Source: Spirochaetales bacterium (GTDB taxonomy: Bacteria > Spirochaetota > Spirochaetia > Sphaerochaetales > Sphaerochaetaceae). Taken from it: a stretch of 64,000 bases of DNA. Below are positions 10,640 to 20,302 of this stretch, one piece after another. The first letter of the stretch is position 1. Each line of letters starts with the position of its first letter. The DNA lies in NCBI GenBank assembly GCA_028722305.1, contig JAQYHB010000039.1, positions 1 to 64,000 of the forward strand, in the 5' to 3' direction. The notes beneath the pieces were generated by a model, which saw nothing but the letters and a program-made list of their open reading frames with translations, was not told where the DNA came from and searched no databases. The translations under genes were made by a program, and so were the position numbers.

Positions 10640-10668
10640 TTGCACCTTTACACGAGAGCGTGTACTAT
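10640..10668 (+). promoter_or_regulatory. metK promoter
   Basis: -35 TTGCAC (10640-10645), 17-bp spacer, -10 TACTAT (10663-10668). Predicted transcription starts near 10675, immediately before the riboswitch aptamer. A hairpin (TACACG-AGAG-CGTGTA, 10649-10664) overlaps the spacer and could be a DNA-level site. Confidence 0.6.
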
Positions 10669-10675
10669 ATCCGGT

Positions 10676-10736
10676 GCGACGCTGATTTGCCTCCCGGCTT
10701 GCGGGCGTCAATAAACAAGATGGCTAAAAGGGGAGA
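10676..10736 (+). ncRNA. SAM-II-type riboswitch controlling metK
   Basis: The sequence matches the SAM-II pattern. P1 is GACGC (10678-10682) pairing with GCGTC (10705-10709). The conserved CTGATTT (10682-10688) opens the loop, and ATAAA (10711-10715) and GCTAAAAGGGG (10723-10733) follow. The loop CTCCC (10691-10695) can pair with GGGAG (10731-10735) to form the H-type pseudoknot. The crystallised SAM-II RNA has the same order of elements (CGCUGAUUU, GCAAGCG, AUAAA, GCUAAAAAGGG). The aptamer begins at the predicted transcription start. Unusually, its 3' purine tail is about 50 nt before the metK start, which has its own AGGAAGGG, so sequestration of the ribosome site must be indirect or use another fold. 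Confidence 0.82.
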
Positions 10737-10782
10737 ACTGGTTCTGTATCTTCTATCCTCTTCTGCCTAAAGGAAGGGTTTC

Positions 10783-11931
10783 ATGCTTACAAAGGGACTT
10801 CATATCTTCACTTCCGAGTCGGTAAGCGAAGGACATCCCGACAAGGTTTGCGACCAGATTGCCGACGCGATTCTGGACGCGTGTCTCAAAGTCGACAAGA
10901 ATTCTCATGTCGCGTGCGAGGTCTTCGCTACAACCAATACGGTAGTCGTTGGTGGAGAAATCACGACAAAAGCGGTTCTTGACGTTGACTCCATTGTCCG
11001 TGGAGTTGTCGCCGGCATCGGCTATACCGAACCGCTGTGCGGTTTTGACGCCGCCAGCCTCACCATCATCAATCTGATCAAGAAACAGAGTCCGGACATC
11101 GCGCTCGGTGTCAACGCCGCTACCAGCAAGAGCGGGAAACAGGGCGCAGGAGACCAGGGAATGATGTTCGGATTCGCCTGTGATGAGACTCCCGAGTACA
11201 TGCCCGCTCCGGTAATGTACTCCCACGCGTTGCTCCGAAAAGCTACCGAGCTACGTAAAACAGGAAAGGCTCCGTTTCTTAGACCCGACTCGAAGAGCCA
11301 AGTTTCCGTCATCTACAAAGATGGCAGGCCCATCGCCATCGACAGTGTCGTCATCAGCCACCAGCATAAGCCAGAGGCTACCGAAGAGCAGATTCACGAC
11401 TTCTTGATGAACAAGGTGATCAAGCCTGTGCTTGAGCCAACTGGTATGCTGACCAAGGACACCAAGTACTACATCAACCCGACCGGTCGCTTTGTCATCG
11501 GAGGTCCCGCCGGCGATACTGGTGTGACTGGCAGGAAAATCATTGTGGATACCTATGGAGGCATGGGCCGTCATGGCGGCGGTGCTTTTAGTGGCAAGGA
11601 TCCATCGAAGGTAGACCGCAGTGCCGCCTACATGGCCCGCTACGTCGCCAAGAACCTGGTGGCCAACAAGCTCTGCTCAAAGTGCGAAATCCAGTTCAGC
11701 TATGCCATCGGCGTCCCCGACCCAATCTCCGTCTTCGTCGATTCCTTCGGCACCGGCGTGGTCAGCGACCAGGAGCTCGAGGATATCGTCCGGAAGAACT
11801 TCGACCTGACCCCTGGCGGAATCATCCAGGAACTTGACCTGCTGAGACCAATCTATCAGTCAAGCGACAACTATGGCCACTTCGGCAGGACCGACGTCCC
11901 CTGGGAGAGGATCATCACCCTGAAGAAATAA
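10783..11931 (+). CDS. metK: S-adenosylmethionine synthetase
   Basis: 382 residues, standard length. It makes S-adenosylmethionine from methionine and ATP. Signatures include '[20 protein letters not shown]' at the N-terminus, '[20 protein letters not shown]', and the P-loop-like '[20 protein letters not shown]'. The ATG at 10783 has AGGAAGGG 5 nt upstream. A SAM-II-type aptamer occupies the 5' leader, giving feedback control by the product. The gene stands alone between its promoter and a terminator shared with the converging TRAP operon. Confidence 0.97.
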
Positions 11932-12026: not shown

Positions 12027-13343
12027 TTACAGATGGAAGGGAACGTATCCGGCAAGCTTCATCGGCAGGATCAGTGAAATCGCCGGTATATAGGATACCA
12101 TCAGCAGAGCGACAATCATGCAGAGATAGAACGGCAAGGTTGCTTTCACTACCTTCTCGATCGGGGTTTTCCCGACGGCGGAGCCGATGAAGAGCACTGC
12201 GCCAACCGGAGGAGTCAGCAGGCCGATACCGCAGTTGAGCACCATCATGATTCCGAATTGGATCGGGTCGAGGCCACAAACGTTCATGGCGACTGGAAGC
12301 AGGATTGGAGTGGCAATCAGAATGATTGGCGCCATATCCATGATGCAGCCAAGCAACAGCAGGATGATGTTGAGCAACATGATGACCACATATTTGTTGG
12401 TCGAAACGGAGGTAATCGCCTTCGCCGCCAGATCGGGAATGTGGAGCATCGTGAGGCAGTTCCCGAATACCGCGCTGGTCGCGATAAGGATCAGCACGAT
12501 GGAGAGGGTGCTCACGCAGTTGTCCAGTACCTTCCAGACCCCTTTCCAATCCAAACCCTTATAGATGAAGACCGAGACAATCAGCGAATAGATGACCGCG
12601 ATTGCAGCGGATTCAGTGGCCGTGAAGAAACCGGCGACGACTCCAATCACGACGATGATGACGGCAGCGAGAGCCCAGAAAGAGCGGAGAAACTGCTTGA
12701 AGAACGTCTTCAAGTTGAAGGGCTCTCCCTTCGGATACGAACGTTTCACCGAGATGATGTAGGCGCCGACCATCAGGGAAATGGCAAGCACGGCGCCGGG
12801 CAGATAGCCGGCAAGGAACAAGCTGCCGACCGAGACGCCTCCGGCGGTCGTCGCGTAGATGACCATGTTGTGGCTCGGAGGAACAAGCAGACCCTCGCAG
12901 GAACTGGTGATCGTGACCGCGGTGGAGAAGTCTGCGTCGTATCCCTGGTCCACCATCATCGGAATCAGAATCGAACCGAGCGAAGCCGTGTCTGCGGAAG
13001 CGGAACCGGAAATGCCGCCGAAGAAGTAGGAGGCGACGATGTTGACCATGGCAAGACCTCCCCTCATCCATCCGACGCAGGAATCGGAAAGGTCGATCAA
13101 TTTCTCGCTGATGCCTCCGGTCCCCATCAGCACGCCCATCGTGATGAAGAAGGGGACCGCCATCAAGCTGAAGGAGCTGATTCCCTTGACCATAAGACGA
13201 CACACGTCATTCAGGTTCGCACCTAGGTTAAGCATGCAAAGCACGGAGGAAATCCCGACAGCATACGCGATGGGAAAACGCAGGAAGACCATCGCGAAGA
13301 ATGATCCCAGCAGTATGATGATCGCAAGCGTATTGACTGGCAT
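12027..13343 (-). CDS. dctM: TRAP transporter large permease subunit DctM
   Basis: About 438 residues, strongly hydrophobic with some 12 membrane segments, the usual DctM size. Typical motifs include 'FFGGISGSASADTASLGSIL' and 'SSCEGLLVPPSHNMVIYATT'. It forms the sodium-driven channel subunit of a tripartite ATP-independent periplasmic importer. The ATG at 13343 is preferred over the GTG at 13352 because GAGAGG stands 8 nt upstream; it then begins 'MPVNTLAIIILLGSFFAMVF' directly after dctQ. It is the last gene of the kinase-regulator-dctPQM operon. The substrate is likely a carboxylate or sugar acid but is not predictable here. Confidence 0.92.
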   Translation of the reverse strand: MPVNTLAIIILLGSFFAMVFLRFPIAYAVGISSVLCMLNLGANLNDVCRLMVKGISSFSLMAVPFFITMGVLMGTGGISEKLIDLSDSCVGWMRGGLAMVNIVASYFFGGISGSASADTASLGSILIPMMVDQGYDADFSTAVTITSSCEGLLVPPSHNMVIYATTAGGVSVGSLFLAGYLPGAVLAISLMVGAYIISVKRSYPKGEPFNLKTFFKQFLRSFWALAAVIIVVIGVVAGFFTATESAAIAVIYSLIVSVFIYKGLDWKGVWKVLDNCVSTLSIVLILIATSAVFGNCLTMLHIPDLAAKAITSVSTNKYVVIMLLNIILLLLGCIMDMAPIILIATPILLPVAMNVCGLDPIQFGIMMVLNCGIGLLTPPVGAVLFIGSAVGKTPIEKVVKATLPFYLCMIVALLMVSYIPAISLILPMKLAGYVPFHL

Positions 13344-13344
13344 G

Positions 13345-13890
13345 TCACGCACCTCTCTTCGCGGTTTTCAGTTCGTACAACCGCTTGATATGGTTGAAGA
13401 TCGTCTCCAACTCAAAAATGATCATCGCCAGTCCCGCAAGGGGTACCGGGAAATACATCCAGAAGCGGGAAAGCCACGGCATGGAGACATAGAATCCGCG
13501 CCCTCCGAGCGTGGTCGCATAGCGCCAGCCGACAAACAGCATGACAAAGCCTAGGGCAATCACGCCGATATCGGCAATCAAGTCGAGAATCGCGATGGCC
13601 AGCGGGGAAAGGTTACGGTCGAACGCGGTCATGCGGATGTGGGCATTCTGTCTGATTGCGAGCGCTGCCGAGAGGACGGCCATGTAGGACATGCAAGTCA
13701 GTACGACTTCCTCGGACCAGGCGGGATCGGTCAGGAATGGAACATACTTGTTGAACAAACGCCCCGCTACCGCATACGAGGTGATCAGGATATCGGCAAT
13801 CAGGAGCAATTTGCATATAACGAGCACCACTTTGTAGGTAACATCATAGAAGGGTTTCGCCTTTTCCAGAGTGGTAAAGAATTTCGGCAT
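13345..13890 (-). CDS. dctQ: TRAP transporter small permease subunit DctQ
   Basis: 181 residues with four predicted membrane helices, as in DctQ proteins ('VVLICKLLLIADILITSYAV', 'WSEEVVLTCMSYMAVLSAAL', 'ILDLIADIGVIALGFVMLFV', and a last helix near 'LAGLAMIIFELETIF'). The WSEE-VV segment is typical of DctQ. The start at 13890 is chosen for GGAGGATGAT just upstream. It lies between dctP and dctM and would dock the membrane complex with the binding protein. Confidence 0.88.
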   Translation of the reverse strand: MPKFFTTLEKAKPFYDVTYKVVLVICKLLLIADILITSYAVAGRLFNKYVPFLTDPAWSEEVVLTCMSYMAVLSAALAIRQNAHIRMTAFDRNLSPLAIAILDLIADIGVIALGFVMLFVGWRYATTLGGRGFYVSMPWLSRFWMYFPVPLAGLAMIIFELETIFNHIKRLYELKTAKRGA

Positions 13891-13983
13891 ATCATCCTCC
13901 AAAACCGGCATGGAATCCATGCCGTCAGGATACAGACAGAGACGAAGGGAGATGGCATGGGCCACCTCCCCTCATAGCGAAGG

Positions 13984-15021
13984 TTACTTCAGGTTCTTGA
14001 TCTTCTGATACAAGGCTGCCTGGTCCTTGGTGTTCTCCTGAATGACGGAAGCGCAAGCCTTCTCCCACGGAGTCTTGTCGGAGACCTCGACAATCGTCAC
14101 ACCGCCCGCCTTCAGCTCGTCAAGCACCTTGTTCTCGGCGCTCTCGCTGATTTCAGCGTTGTAGGCCTGGGCCTTCTTTCCCGCTTCCAACAACGCCTGT
14201 TGCTGGGCAGCGGTCAGCTTTTTCCAAGCGTTGTCGCAGATGACGACCTGAATGGCGCCAAGCGTGTGCCCATCAAGAATCATGCAGGGAGCGACTTCGG
14301 GGAAAGCGTTGGACTTGTAGTTGGCAATCGGCTGCTCGGCACCGTCGACCACACCTGTCTGCAGAGCGGAATACAGCTCGCCGAAGGAAACGACAGTCGG
14401 AGAAGCGCCAAGTCCCTTGACCATTCCGTTCATGACCGGGTCGTTGGACACGCGAAGCTTCATTCCCTTCAGGTCGTTGATACCGGAAATCTTCTTGACG
14501 GTGAAGAAATGGCGGAAACCCTCCTCGCCATAGAAGATACCCCGCAACGGCAGACCCAGTTCCTGGGGCTCGTTGAGGAATTCGGGAGCAAGCTCGCTGT
14601 TGGCGAAAGCCCAGAAGTGCTTGCGGTTGGAGAAAGTGAACGGAATGGAGAGCAACTTGGACTTCTTCGCGCCATAACTGGTCAAAGCGAAGGCGGAAAT
14701 ACGGCTCATGTCTATGGTGGTACCTCCGCCAACCATGGAATCGAGGACATCGTTCTCACTGCCAAGGACACCGGAGGCCTGAATGTCGATGGTGATGGAA
14801 CCACCGGAAAGGGACTCGACCTGCTCCTTGAAGTAGGAAGCTGTCTTCCCGACAATCGTGTCGAGCGGGTTGACCTCCGCGTAGACGAGGGTCACGTGCG
14901 GGTCTTTGGTCACGTCACCAGTTCCAGCCTTTGCTGCGGGAGCGTTGGTTTCCTGCGTTCCACCAGCGAACAAAGGAAGGGACAGCGCGAGCGCCAATAC
15001 AGAAAGAATACGTTTTTTCAT
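13984..15021 (-). CDS. dctP: TRAP transporter substrate-binding protein DctP
   Basis: 345 residues. The start at 15021 has AAGGAGGAAAAGC upstream and gives a clear signal peptide, 'MKKRILSVLALALSLPLFAG', followed by GTQE. There is no lipobox Cys, so it is likely a soluble periplasmic protein. Body motifs fit DctP: 'VGGGTTIDMSRISAFALTSY', 'ISGINDLKGMKLRVSNDPVM', 'GELYSALQTGVVDGAEQPIA'; the Arg in 'LRVSN' normally binds the substrate carboxylate. It feeds the DctQM permease encoded downstream. Confidence 0.92.
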   Translation of the reverse strand: MKKRILSVLALALSLPLFAGGTQETNAPAAKAGTGDVTKDPHVTLVYAEVNPLDTIVGKTASYFKEQVESLSGGSITIDIQASGVLGSENDVLDSMVGGGTTIDMSRISAFALTSYGAKKSKLLSIPFTFSNRKHFWAFANSELAPEFLNEPQELGLPLRGIFYGEEGFRHFFTVKKISGINDLKGMKLRVSNDPVMNGMVKGLGASPTVVSFGELYSALQTGVVDGAEQPIANYKSNAFPEVAPCMILDGHTLGAIQVVICDNAWKKLTAAQQQALLEAGKKAQAYNAEISESAENKVLDELKAGGVTIVEVSDKTPWEKACASVIQENTKDQAALYQKIKNLK

Positions 15022-15147
15022 GCTTTTCCTCCTTACGAAAAGGGTCGTCCAATTCCGACCAAGCAATTGCACTATAGAAGGAAACAAGCTGAAATCACGG
15101 AAATACAAAAGATAGTACAATACATCCAAAAAGAGTGAAAATGTTGC

Positions 15148-16143
15148 TTATTGGCTCTGGATTTGTCTGATGATTTCGGCATCCTCTCCGGCAAACTGGT
15201 CGTAGATGCCCCGCATCGCCTCTCTCCACCGGGCGATTTCCGCCTGTTCCGGATAGGTAATAGTACAGCCGGATGCCTTGAGTTTCTCCTCGCACTCCAG
15301 TTCCGCCTTTCGCCAAAGTTCACGCTCATACAGGCTCGCCTCTTTCGCGCACTGCATGACCACCCCCACGAAGGAAGGTTCCACCATGGCGATCTTCCCT
15401 TTCGCCGCGAAGCTCATCAGCACCACCTCGGGAAGACGGAAGTGCTCGTCGAGGAACAGGTAGGGAGCAGCCTCATAGTGTCCGGTGAACTGATAACTGG
15501 GAATGTTGTTTTCCGCACCATCGATCTTGTGGGTCTGGAGCGCCGAATAGACTGAGCCGTAGGGAATCTGGACTGAACGGGCGCCAAGCAGACGAATCAT
15601 CTCGCTCATCAAATCGCTCTCCTGCACCCGAATCACCTTCCCTTGCAGGTCTTCCAGACGGTTGACTGGCTCGATGGTGTAGAAGCTCCTCGCTCCAGCA
15701 TCGAACCAACAAAGTCCTACTGCTCCATATCTCTGCATGCTTGCAAGGAATGCTTCCCCAATCGGGCCATCAAGCACCCGCCACATATGGGCCGAGTCCC
15801 TGTACAGATAAGGAAGCTGGAGCACTTTTGTCTGAGGCTGGAACTTGCTGAACGTTCCAAGCGAGAACCGGGAAAAGTCGACGCCGCCATAGGCAACCTG
15901 GTCCAACACCTCAAGTTCCTCTCCAAGTTCTCCCCCTCCGAACACGCGGATCTGGATCTTGCCTTCCGTCCTGTCGCTGACCAAGGCGGAGAAGTAGCGT
16001 GCCGCGGTGGTAGTCGGATAATCGATCGGCTGGTTGTCCGCATAGCGGAGGATCAATAAGGGCTTTTCTTCCTTTGCTAGAGAACGGGAACACCCAACGA
16101 GCAGAAAAAGCAGAAGCCCTGACAGGAAGGCCAACCGTCTCAT
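15148..16143 (-). CDS. DctP-like solute-binding lipoprotein, possible sensor partner
   Basis: 331 residues. The start at 16143 overlaps the regulator gene stop by 4 bp. The signal peptide ends in a lipobox 'LLFLLVGC' with Cys18, so it is membrane anchored. The body is a second DctP-family protein ('GELGEELEVLDQVAYGGVDF', 'LEDLQGKVIRVQESDLMSEM', 'GSVYSALQTHKIDGAENNIP'), with the ligand Arg in 'VIRVQES'. It is coded with the histidine kinase and regulator, not next to the permease genes. I infer it may present ligand to the kinase or act as an alternative binding protein. Confidence 0.82.
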   Translation of the reverse strand: MRRLAFLSGLLLFLLVGCSRSLAKEEKPLLILRYADNQPIDYPTTTAARYFSALVSDRTEGKIQIRVFGGGELGEELEVLDQVAYGGVDFSRFSLGTFSKFQPQTKVLQLPYLYRDSAHMWRVLDGPIGEAFLASMQRYGAVGLCWFDAGARSFYTIEPVNRLEDLQGKVIRVQESDLMSEMIRLLGARSVQIPYGSVYSALQTHKIDGAENNIPSYQFTGHYEAAPYLFLDEHFRLPEVVLMSFAAKGKIAMVEPSFVGVVMQCAKEASLYERELWRKAELECEEKLKASGCTITYPEQAEIARWREAMRGIYDQFAGEDAEIIRQIQSQ

Positions 16144-16925
16144 GCCATACCTCCCTCCTGCGGGCGCACCTTCCGATACTCGGTCGGTGTCATGCCGGTC
16201 CGTTTCTTGAACGCCCGGGTGAAGTAGCTGGCACTCTCGTAGCCGATCATGCTGGCGATTTCCGCCGTCGATCGAAGCGGATCGTCGAGCAGGACCTTCG
16301 CGGCGGAAATCCGCTGGTCGGTCACATAGTCGATGAAGTTCACGCCAGTGCATTTCTTGAACAGGGAGGAAAGGTAGGAGGCGTTCATTCCCAGAATGCT
16401 ACTGACCGAGTCAAGGGATAAAGTGTACAAGGCATAGTTGTGGCGGATATACTGCTGTATCTTTGCGACCAGTTGCGAAGCTTTGTCGGTTCCCTCGTCA
16501 TCGTCACTGGCCGGATTCGATCCCGCCGACGATCCTTCCAGTTGCCGCTGGAGCTCAATCTGCTTCGAGGCCTTCTCCACGGCGGTAATGACACCATCGG
16601 TATCGACAGGCTTGAGGATATAGTCGCTCGCACCCATGCGGACCGCCTCGTGGGCATAGGTAAAGAGCGGATAGGCTGTGATGAAAATGATGCGGGTCAG
16701 CGGATTTTTCCCTAGAATCCGCTTGGCTGCCTCGATGCCCTTCATTACCGGCATCTCGATGTCTAGCAACGCGATGTCGGCATTCCAGAGCAACGCGGTA
16801 TCCACAGCCTCCCGTCCGTTCTGCACGCACCTGATTTCCGCATTCCCCTGGAAATGACGGGCTACCATATCGTGCAGGAAACCAAGTTCGGGAAACTCGT
16901 CGTCAGCTATCAGGATTTTCAGCAT
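16140..16925 (-). CDS. Response regulator, CheY-AraC type (YesN-like)
   Basis: About 261 residues. The receiver domain (about 1-120) shows 'LIADDEFPEL' acidic residues, the phospho-acceptor Asp in 'DIALLDIEMPVMKGIEAAKR', a Thr in 'IIFITAYP' and Lys in 'DYILKPVDTDG'. A linker rich in Ser/Asp leads to a C-terminal AraC double HTH ('ILGMNASYLSSLFKKCTGVN', 'STAEIASMIGYESASYFTRA'). The ATG at 16925 is preferred because GGGAGG is 6 nt upstream. It overlaps the kinase gene end and probably activates the TRAP operon it belongs to. Confidence 0.9.
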   Translation of the reverse strand: MLKILIADDEFPELGFLHDMVARHFQGNAEIRCVQNGREAVDTALLWNADIALLDIEMPVMKGIEAAKRILGKNPLTRIIFITAYPLFTYAHEAVRMGASDYILKPVDTDGVITAVEKASKQIELQRQLEGSSAGSNPASDDDEGTDKASQLVAKIQQYIRHNYALYTLSLDSVSSILGMNASYLSSLFKKCTGVNFIDYVTDQRISAAKVLLDDPLRSTAEIASMIGYESASYFTRAFKKRTGMTPTEYRKVRPQEGGMA

Positions 16926-18423
16926 TCGCATCCTCCCGGTACGGAAACGTCATCACCACCTGCGTCCCTTGGTTTTTGATCGAGAACATCTCGAAACTAC
17001 TTCTCTTATCCAGCAATTTCAACCGTGCAGCGACATTGTAGATGCCGATATGCTCATCCGCCAAGTATTCCCGCCCCAGTTTTTCCCTGACCAGCTGCAA
17101 TTCGCTCTCGTCCATTCCCACCCCGTCGTCGCTCACGATGATGCGAAGCATGTCTTTATCTGGCTTTGTCTTGCTGATGGTGATGGAAACCGTTCCCCCT
17201 TCATCCTTTGGCGCGATTCCATGGCGGAAGGCGTTCTCAGCCAACGGCTGGAGAATGAAGGAGGGGACGAACACCTCGCTGACAACAATATTCTCGCCGG
17301 CTCTCCAAACCAAGGAGACCCGGTCCCCGAAACGTTCTTTGTAGAGGGAAAAAAGGGCCTGCACCACCTGCAGTTCTTGGGAAAGGGGAACCATCTGGGC
17401 GTTACTCCCCATCGCGTAGCTGTAGATCCGTCCCAAGGAAGAAAGCATCTTCGACGCCTTTTGAGCACCTTCATCCTCCGCGCTGATCTTGATGATGTTC
17501 AGTGTGTTGAAGAGGAAATGGGGATTGATTTGGCTCCGGAATTGCTGGAGCCTCGCCTGTTCCAGCATGTTTTGCAACCCGAGCGCTTCGTTCTCCTTGC
17601 GGTACAGGTTCCTTTCAATCCGGTTTTTTTCCTCAAGCAGTCGCACCTGCTGCTTCATCGAGTGCTTCATGGTGTTGAACACCGCAGAAAGTCCACTGAT
17701 CTCGTCGTCCCCAATCTGAGGTAGGTCGGCAATGGAGAAATCTCCCTTGCTGATTGAGCGGGATTGCAAAGAGAGGGTACGGAAAAACAAAAGCAGACGA
17801 ACAATCGAGACAACCATCAGGAATGCGAGCAAAAGGCAGAAGCAGAGCATCAAGTTCTGCAAGTTCTTTAGTTGGCTGTTCAGTGCCATCAGAGTGACAA
17901 ACTCATCCTGGTTGTCCGAAATTGCCCTCTCGAGCAACTGCTGGGTATATTTCCGGATATAGTTCCCGCAACTTACTATTTTTCCATAGTAGAGATTCGA
18001 TGCCGCGACAGTATTGTTGGCATGAATGTAGGTACAGAGCATCGTCTCGAACCGACAGAAGGTGGCAAAGGTTGTCCTCATCGCGTTTCCGTACAGATAT
18101 TGGGCTTCCCCCTGCCGGGAAAGATCAAGGTCGATGGCGTCGACAAGACGTTGCGCTTCCACTTGGTCCCTATCGATCGTCTCCGCAAGAATGGCGGCAT
18201 CTCCGTACTCCCATCGGAAATCAGCAAGATGAGACAGACTCTCCTCGAAGAAATCAAGAAACCGGCTGATTGCCTGGATATTCTGGATGCGCAGGTTTTC
18301 CGGCTGGATGACAAGGTTTTCCTGCATCCCACTGATCACTAGTTGGCCGCTGAACGCGAGAAAGAAGGCAAAGAGGAAAAAAATGATTTTTCCTAGCAGG
18401 CGGTTTCGAAATCGTTTTTCCAT
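16903..18423 (-). CDS. Sensor histidine kinase, YesM-like
   Basis: 506 residues. Start at 18423 has AAGGAGGTTTTG before ATG. It has TM1 at about 10-30, an extracytoplasmic sensor of about 165 residues, TM2 near 200-220, a HAMP segment ('SISKGDFSIADLPQIGDDEI'), a coiled linker, and a His_kinase domain with 'FRSQINPHFLFNTLNIIKIS' holding the phospho-acceptor His. The HATPase_c domain has 'LQPLAENAFRHGI' (N box) and 'IIVSDDGVGM' (G1 box). It pairs with the overlapping regulator gene. The sensed ligand is likely the TRAP substrate, possibly via the adjacent lipoprotein. Confidence 0.9.
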   Translation of the reverse strand: MEKRFRNRLLGKIIFFLFAFFLAFSGQLVISGMQENLVIQPENLRIQNIQAISRFLDFFEESLSHLADFRWEYGDAAILAETIDRDQVEAQRLVDAIDLDLSRQGEAQYLYGNAMRTTFATFCRFETMLCTYIHANNTVAASNLYYGKIVSCGNYIRKYTQQLLERAISDNQDEFVTLMALNSQLKNLQNLMLCFCLLLAFLMVVSIVRLLLFFRTLSLQSRSISKGDFSIADLPQIGDDEISGLSAVFNTMKHSMKQQVRLLEEKNRIERNLYRKENEALGLQNMLEQARLQQFRSQINPHFLFNTLNIIKISAEDEGAQKASKMLSSLGRIYSYAMGSNAQMVPLSQELQVVQALFSLYKERFGDRVSLVWRAGENIVVSEVFVPSFILQPLAENAFRHGIAPKDEGGTVSITISKTKPDKDMLRIIVSDDGVGMDESELQLVREKLGREYLADEHIGIYNVAARLKLLDKRSSFEMFSIKNQGTQVVMTFPYREDANAENPDS

Positions 18424-18496
18424 CAAAACCTCCTTGTATGCGGTTTTCTCCTCCATCATACCACAGACATTTTCCCACATAGGAGACGATGTTCGC

Positions 18497-20302
18497 TCAA
18501 ACCTTCTCCCACCCGGTCTGAAGCCGATATAGGTGTTCGTAACGTCCATGGAGCGCCATCAACTCCTCGTGCGTCCCCTGCTCCAGGATCCTTCCGTCCT
18601 CAAGATAGACAATCAGGTCGGAATCCCTGATGGTGGAAAGCCGATGGGCGATGATGAACGAGGTGCGGCCTCTGGTCATCTGGAGCATGGCCCTCCGGAT
18701 GTGCTGCTCGGTGACCGTGTCGACCGAACTGGTTGCCTCGTCCAAAATCAGGATCGGAGCGTTTGACAGCACTGCCCTGGCGATGGTGAGCAACTGCCGT
18801 TCCCCTTGGCTGAGTTCCATGCCTCCTTGGGTAAGCACGGTGTCGTATTTCTTCGGCAGGCGCGCGATGAAGGAGTCCGCCCCGGCTACCTTGGCCGCCT
18901 GTCCGATGGCGTCGGCTGTCACCTTGTCAACCCCGTAGGCGATATTGGCCTTCACCGTATCGGAAAAGAGCGCGGTATCCTGAAGCACCGTGCCATACAC
19001 AGAGCGAAGATCGTGCATCCGATAGTCCCTGATATCGTGTCCGTCGAGAAAAATCGCTCCGCTGTCCACATCGTAGAACCTGGAAAGCAAACTGATGATG
19101 GTGGTCTTTCCGCTACCGGTAGGACCGACGATGGCCACTCGGGTTCCCGATGGAACGTCCAGGGAAAAATCCTTCAGGACCGGTCGGTCCTTCCGATAGC
19201 CGAAGGAGACATGCTTGAATGAGATGTCCCCATTAGGAACAATAATGGAAAGCGCGCCGTTCCTATCCTCAGGTTCCGGTTTTTCATCTATGACTTCAAA
19301 GACCCGTTCAGCTCCGGCGACAGCAGTCTGGAAGGTGTTGTAGATGTTGGAAATCTGCACGAATGGTTTCGCCAATTGACGAGAATACAGAAGAAAAGTG
19401 GTAATCAGTCCGATGGTAATGATGTCCTGTACCGCCAGTAATCCGCTCGCCGTCGCCAACAACAGATAGCTGAGGTTGTTGATGACGCCGGTAAAGGGCA
19501 TCAGAAAACCCGACCAAATATTGGCGGTGATAGCGGTAAGGCAAAGCTGTTCGTTCCGCTCCGTGAAGGCCTTCACCATCTTCTCTTCCCTACCGAAAGC
19601 CTTGATCACCTGAAGACCGGAAACACTTTCCTCCACCTGCCCGTTGAGCGACCCAAGAATGTTCTGTTGCTCTTTGAACAGCTTTCCCGTACGTCGGGTG
19701 ATTATTCTCGTCACAAGCAACACCAAGAAGACTCCGACAAGGGCAATCAAGGTAAGCAAGGGACTCAGCGCGACCATACAGACAAGCACTCCGAGGATGG
19801 TGAACGAATAGGTCAAAAGCAAAGTCAGCGAGTCGCTGATGGTCTGGCTGATGGTATCCACGTCGTTGGTCAACCTGCTCATCAACTCACCATGCTGGTG
19901 ACAGTCAAAGAAAGCAATTGGAAGACGGTTCATCGCGTGAAAGAGGTTGGTACGAATTTGATTGATAATCTTTTGACCAGTCGAAGCCATAAAGAACTGC
20001 TGAAGGAAAGAAACCAGCCACTCTCCCACGTACAGTGCTACCAGTATGGACAGCACCCCCAACACAGGGGATGTTTGGTCTATCGCCGTTACCACCCACC
20101 CAATGACAAGGGGAGACACAATTGCCCCCGTCGAAGATAATGCCGAAAGAAACAGGATGATTCCCAATCTCTTGCGATGATTTCTGGTCATGGTCCAGAG
20201 ACGACGGAGCGTCCCCTTCATATCCTTTGGTTTTACCACCGGTGTCTTGCTCATGCCTGCGGGATTGGTCCTCTGTGGCATGACAATCCGAGTGTCAGCC
20301 AT
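18497..20302 (-). CDS. ABC exporter half-transporter (permease-ATPase), subunit 2
   Basis: About 601 residues. The start at 20302 has GGAGGAGG upstream. The N-terminal half has six membrane segments from about residue 45, with an NTD containing Walker A 'VGPTGSGKTT', signature 'LSQGERQLLTIARAVLSNAP', Walker B 'ILILDEATSSVD' and the H-loop in 'FIIAHRLSTI'. It overlaps the end of the partner gene by 8 bp. The two are a heterodimeric multidrug-type exporter in the LmrCD/BmrCD class. Here the signature is 'LSQGE' and Walker B is followed by Glu, so this subunit carries the intact catalytic Glu. Confidence 0.9.
   Translation of the reverse strand: MADTRIVMPQRTNPAGMSKTPVVKPKDMKGTLRRLWTMTRNHRKRLGIILFLSALSSTGAIVSPLVIGWVVTAIDQTSPVLGVLSILVALYVGEWLVSFLQQFFMASTGQKIINQIRTNLFHAMNRLPIAFFDCHQHGELMSRLTNDVDTISQTISDSLTLLLTYSFTILGVLVCMVALSPLLTLIALVGVFLVLLVTRIITRRTGKLFKEQQNILGSLNGQVEESVSGLQVIKAFGREEKMVKAFTERNEQLCLTAITANIWSGFLMPFTGVINNLSYLLLATASGLLAVQDIITIGLITTFLLYSRQLAKPFVQISNIYNTFQTAVAGAERVFEVIDEKPEPEDRNGALSIIVPNGDISFKHVSFGYRKDRPVLKDFSLDVPSGTRVAIVGPTGSGKTTIISLLSRFYDVDSGAIFLDGHDIRDYRMHDLRSVYGTVLQDTALFSDTVKANIAYGVDKVTADAIGQAAKVAGADSFIARLPKKYDTVLTQGGMELSQGERQLLTIARAVLSNAPILILDEATSSVDTVTEQHIRRAMLQMTRGRTSFIIAHRLSTIRDSDLIVYLEDGRILEQGTHEELMALHGRYEHLYRLQTGWEKV

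Follow-up and report, generated by a model that had tools for sequence, protein, structure and literature searches.

Most SAM-II riboswitches have been described as transcriptional switches, and a minority hide the SD sequence in the pseudoknot helix, P2a (PMC6061858); the class also occurs in tandem systems with terminators (PMC9481103), and the SAM-II of S. meliloti metA controls a start at a distance of 74 nt (PMC9373788). Structures of SAM-II and SAM-V assign ligand-site roles to UUU, UUG and CUAAA (PMC6061858), and SAM-II long loops (RF01726) is a SAM-II variant with larger loops (PMC2864571). The literature consulted speaks of SAM-II in proteobacteria, Bacteroidota and marine samples, whereas the case presented here comes from a spirochaete family: a SAM-II aptamer at the head of metK in the window, by which we mean the whole 64,000-nucleotide stretch analysed, from a Spirochaetales bacterium (contig JAQYHB010000039.1). 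The sensor is of a known type; what seems new is a lineage-specific SAM-II with a distal platform that sequesters the SD.

A preliminary description of this DNA, made from its letters, had proposed a SAM-II-type riboswitch in front of metK, with P1, CTGATTT, ATAAA and a CTCCC/GGGAG pseudoknot as its fixed blocks. All of these are readable in the window (Table 1): the P1 core, GACGC (10678-10682) with GCGTC (10705-10709), is lengthened by one T-G pair, and ATAAA lies 3' of P1. The covariance-model search that it had called for gives a significant match: in a permissive Rfam scan of 231 nt, RF00521 is the only riboswitch family matched and the match spans model positions 1-79 of 79, while in a search of the whole genome the same match has an E-value of 1.3e-4, the runner-up scoring 12.7 bits. 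The score nevertheless falls below the RF00521 gathering score of 36 bits, a threshold set by the curators rather than a biochemical feature, and an Rfam scan of the window at default gathering thresholds reports nothing. Relatives score 31.9 (G082, of the same genus) and up to 41.2 bits. Neither SAM-V nor SAM-II long loops was matched up to E 10 in the permissive scan; the window loop is short, and most relatives have an insert of only 4 nt there. A minus-strand match to leuA-Halobacteria (14.8 bits against a cut-off of 47.9, E 0.72) was set aside as chance. With model R1, a covariance model of metK-type aptamers built from the window aptamer and its relatives, the core at 10677-10736 scores 74 bits. 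The element thus has the P1 and H-type pseudoknot of RF00521 (SAM_alpha), its UGAUUU, CUUGC and GCUAAA blocks, and a sulfur/SAM gene downstream; we file it as a SAM-II riboswitch and predict that it binds SAM.

Table 1. Features of the metK leader and gene, in window coordinates.
Feature	Position	Strand	Remarks
Putative promoter TTGCAC-N17-TACTAT	10640..10668	+	similar motif upstream of related metK aptamers
SAM-II (RF00521) covariance-model match	10669..10748	+	29.2 bits, E 4.6e-5
P1 5' strand GACGCT	10678..10683	+	partner GGCGTC 10704-10709; two-sided changes in relatives
CTGATTTG block	10682-10689	+	read directly in sequence
Pseudoknot (P2a) 5' strand CTCCC	10691..10695	+	pseudoknot cells 95% paired in 20 distinct metK aptamers
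P1 3' strand GGCGTC	10704..10709	+	partner GACGCT 10678-10683; two-sided changes in relatives
Conserved GCTAAAAGGGGAG	10723..10735	+	contains the ligand-site strand; GGGAG (10731-10735) is the pseudoknot 3' strand
Anti-SD strand CTCTTCT	10758..10764	+	pairs with SD GGAAGGG, 7 bp including 2 G-U
metK SD GGAAGGG in distal hairpin	10772..10778	+	4 nt before ATG
metK, methionine adenosyltransferase, 382 aa	10783..11931	+	TIGR01034, 569.6 bits, 2.8e-171

The aptamer is well conserved. An alignment of twenty distinct metK aptamers is nearly gap-free, and P1 and the pseudoknot are paired in 97.7% and 95% of cells respectively (96.5% together), against 37-57% in controls with slid partners. Compensatory change among relatives, which had been set as a test, is found in both elements: three P1/pseudoknot pairs change on both sides, and none of 500 shuffles did as well. 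The bases that form the ligand site in SAM-II and SAM-V, namely the UUU third strand, the UUG of CUUGC and CUAAA, are invariant in all twenty, the window included. Downstream, the identity of metK is secure, its TIGR01034 score far exceeding the cut-off of 309.4; among named genomes the protein has only distant homologues, the best at 62% identity, and the presence of Treponema and Spirochaetes entries among the best matches agrees, indirectly, with the earlier reading of the genome as spirochaete-like.

Relatives of the aptamer fall into three groups. In group A (GACGUGAUUUA..GCUAAAAGGAG) an AUG follows at 5-8 nt and the pseudoknot strand is itself the SD. Most group A aptamers stand before a short protein that begins MQYTP and has no assigned function; at L008, L009, L010, L011, L013 and L017 a SAM-II with proximal SD precedes a protein of 124-138 aa with this or a similar start. 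A scan of one member, that of L008, gave nothing in PHROGs and in Pfam only a weak hit under the cut-off. From its position, the MQYTP-type gene appears to be a SAM-regulated gene of uncharacterised product. Group C has a proximal SD before other small, uncharacterised proteins; in L125, L130, L134, L136, L137 and L141 (GACGUGGAUUU..) it lies 5-6 nt before the start, and the three proteins scanned (L125, L130, L137) gave no family match above cut-off. Group B, the metK group to which the window belongs, combines CUCCC/GGGAG with a start that comes some 45 to 75 nt later. At one locus with a group B aptamer, L129, metK starts 9 nt past GGGAG, as is usual in translational SAM-II leaders, and metK is therefore found with either layout. 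Short reading frames also start at the pseudoknot SD in L133, L020, L025, L115 and L123, the main gene lying farther on, and in the last four of these a hairpin of GCCTCC/GGAGGC type contains the next SD.

In the window the metK ATG begins 35 nt past the end of the RF00521 match and 47 nt past the end of the GGGAG strand, close to the 50 nt given in the preliminary description, which had suspected from this distance that control might differ from that of leaders whose tail is the ribosome site. A distal hairpin that sequesters the SD lies between, and accounts for the distance. The first base of the SD is 37 nt past the pseudoknot strand, and in each of the 22 distinct distal-start leaders of group B the metK SD (GGAAGG) forms the 3' arm of a hairpin of 6-7 bp, with CYCTTCY or some variant of that motif as the 5' arm. 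Platform pairs were counted with a motif-anchored script, and changes in this hairpin among the 22, including U-A for C-G, are compatible with pairing. Mean SD pairing was 0.94 in these SAM-II metK leaders and 0.43 in 24 metK leaders of the family that lack SAM-II, a set from which SAM-I leaders were left out; the difference (Mann-Whitney p 4e-8) is indicative only, related sequences not being independent. The hairpin is a conserved companion of the aptamer.

The two may also be connected through base pairing. In all 22 leaders the pseudoknot 3' strand is able to pair with the anti-SD strand, with an overlap of 3-7 nt; in the window its partner is TCCTCTT (10756-10762). This pairing dominates in folds of transcripts ending before the SD. 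When the aptamer was held closed, with the pseudoknot imposed as a folding constraint rather than computed, the SD became more paired in every one of the 22 leaders (0.99 versus 0.69 on average), the window leader going from 0.48 to 0.97.

We consider it likely that pseudoknot closure by SAM sets the anti-SD strand free and so shuts off metK translation. The 5' end of the metK mRNA would then be a SAM-II aptamer sensing the product of the enzyme encoded behind it. At low SAM the pseudoknot would fail to form and AAGGGGA (about 10728-10734) would pair with UCCUCUU; with the anti-SD strand occupied, the metK SD would be open and MetK made. At high SAM the CUCCC/GGGAG pseudoknot would be locked and CUCUUCU released to pair with GGAAGGG, turning translation off: a negative feedback on SAM synthesis. 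We infer the formation of the alternative helix in the cell, and likewise the SAM-off direction of control. Against shuffled linkers, selection on the alternative helix was not evident (mean z only -1.0, window +0.8), so pyrimidine-rich composition could yield such a helix; and in several leaders the equilibrium fold retains the SD hairpin even without ligand, so that switching there would have to be kinetic.

Two other ways in which the aptamer might act on metK seem to us improbable, about equally so. In the first, the SAM-bound aptamer would end transcription at the hairpin before metK. This would agree with the transcriptional action described for most SAM-II, a majority that the 5-bp, C-G-rich P2a of the window resembles, and some relatives (L018, L032, L034) do have 4-5 T after the hairpin. 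The window leader, however, contains no intrinsic terminator as judged by a terminator scan, where TTTC and then the start codon come after the hairpin; moreover the SD itself makes up the 3' arm of the hairpin, with 4-7 nt between it and the start codon. In the second, the GGGAG strand would serve, by analogy, as a docking or standby site for ribosomes that initiate at the distal AUG. The precedent is S. meliloti metA, where the riboswitch SD is required in spite of the 74 nt to the start (PMC9373788), and at L133 a short reading frame begins 7 nt past GGGAGG with metK 185 nt on. Against it, the window metK has a good SD of its own next to its ATG, and GGGAG is followed by no ATG, GTG or TTG at a distance that would suit a ribosome. 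That the SD hairpin is a constitutive damper independent of the aptamer, which would then act on mRNA stability or be non-functional, we regard as very unlikely: the ligand-free persistence of the hairpin in several relatives and an alternative helix no stronger than with shuffled linkers speak for it, but hairpin and aptamer co-occur in several genera, and metK leaders without SAM-II lack the hairpin.

Closure of the distal hairpin by SAM, the reading we prefer, would set the window apart from the described systems. It resembles S. meliloti metA in that a SAM-II would act on a start well downstream of the pseudoknot strand, but in the S. meliloti leader a terminator intervenes and the SD of the riboswitch is needed, whereas the window metK has an SD of its own, held in a hairpin, and no terminator was found. 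With SAM-V it would have in common the pseudoknot core and translational control, but P2a is 2 bp in SAM-V (PMC6061858) and 5 bp in the window, whose SD lies outside P2a. From SAM-II at large it differs in using a hairpin that sequesters a distal SD, not a terminator or an overlap of P2a with the SD. Whether this amounts to a third SAM-II output in the lineage, in which the pseudoknot strand competes with the SD for an anti-SD strand some 25 nt away and SAM binding closes the distal metK hairpin, we judge to be evenly balanced. We found no report of such a platform, most subscription journals being outside our search. If it is real, a shift from proximal to distal control of one aptamer class would be visible within one bacterial family, because the proximal layout persists in relatives, at metK or at small uncharacterised genes; the distal layout offers a system for seeing a small pseudoknot aptamer gain a new expression platform.

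Within the GTDB family, which in the genome collection used is the whole order, RF00521 matches (E <= 0.01) occur in 46 of 139 genomes, eight of them above the gathering score; across the phylum, sampled evenly at 393 genomes (E <= 0.001), 11 have matches, six of these from the same family. With R1, 34 copies score above 60 bits, spread over five genera (g1, g12, g13, g16, g17), and weaker copies occur elsewhere; metK lies downstream of every strong copy in the subset whose gene was read. The aptamer is present in each of the three genomes that represent the window's genus. Since the window scores below cut-off, default annotation misses the riboswitch, and SAM-II is under-counted in the family. 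A search of the literature, again with most subscription journals outside it, found no report linking a riboswitch to Sphaerochaeta or SAM-II to Sphaerochaeta-type bacteria. SAM-I (RF00162) is present in 22 of the 139 family genomes; covariance-model search finds it neither in the window genome nor in the other two genomes of that genus. In sister genera SAM-I stands directly before metK (G033:C148, G023:C144, G028:C175), and the occurrence of SAM-I and SAM-II before metK in sister genera makes sensor replacement at one gene testable. In a different family within the class, a SAM-II-like RNA (30 bits; L144, about 1501-1650) is separated by a short GTG-start reading frame from the probable S-adenosylhomocysteine hydrolase gene that it precedes.

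The metK RNA probably starts near the first base of P1, as had been predicted from the putative promoter. Both hexamers, TTGCAC (10640-10645) and TACTAT (10663-10668), are present with the 17-nt spacing, and P1 begins 9 nt past the -10. Agreement with the sigma-70 consensus is weak (7/12), and a consensus promoter scan of the window leader did not list the pair. The start is placed at the aptamer because CTTGYAC-N17-TANTAT is kept about 8-9 nt upstream of P1 in many related group B leaders.

Two genomes (G122, G123) have three metK homologues each, about 64%, 50% and 48% identical to the window metK. Downstream of metK in the window, on the minus strand at 12027-18549, the translations read as TRAP transporter genes, with two substrate-binding proteins among them, followed by genes for a response regulator and for a histidine kinase.
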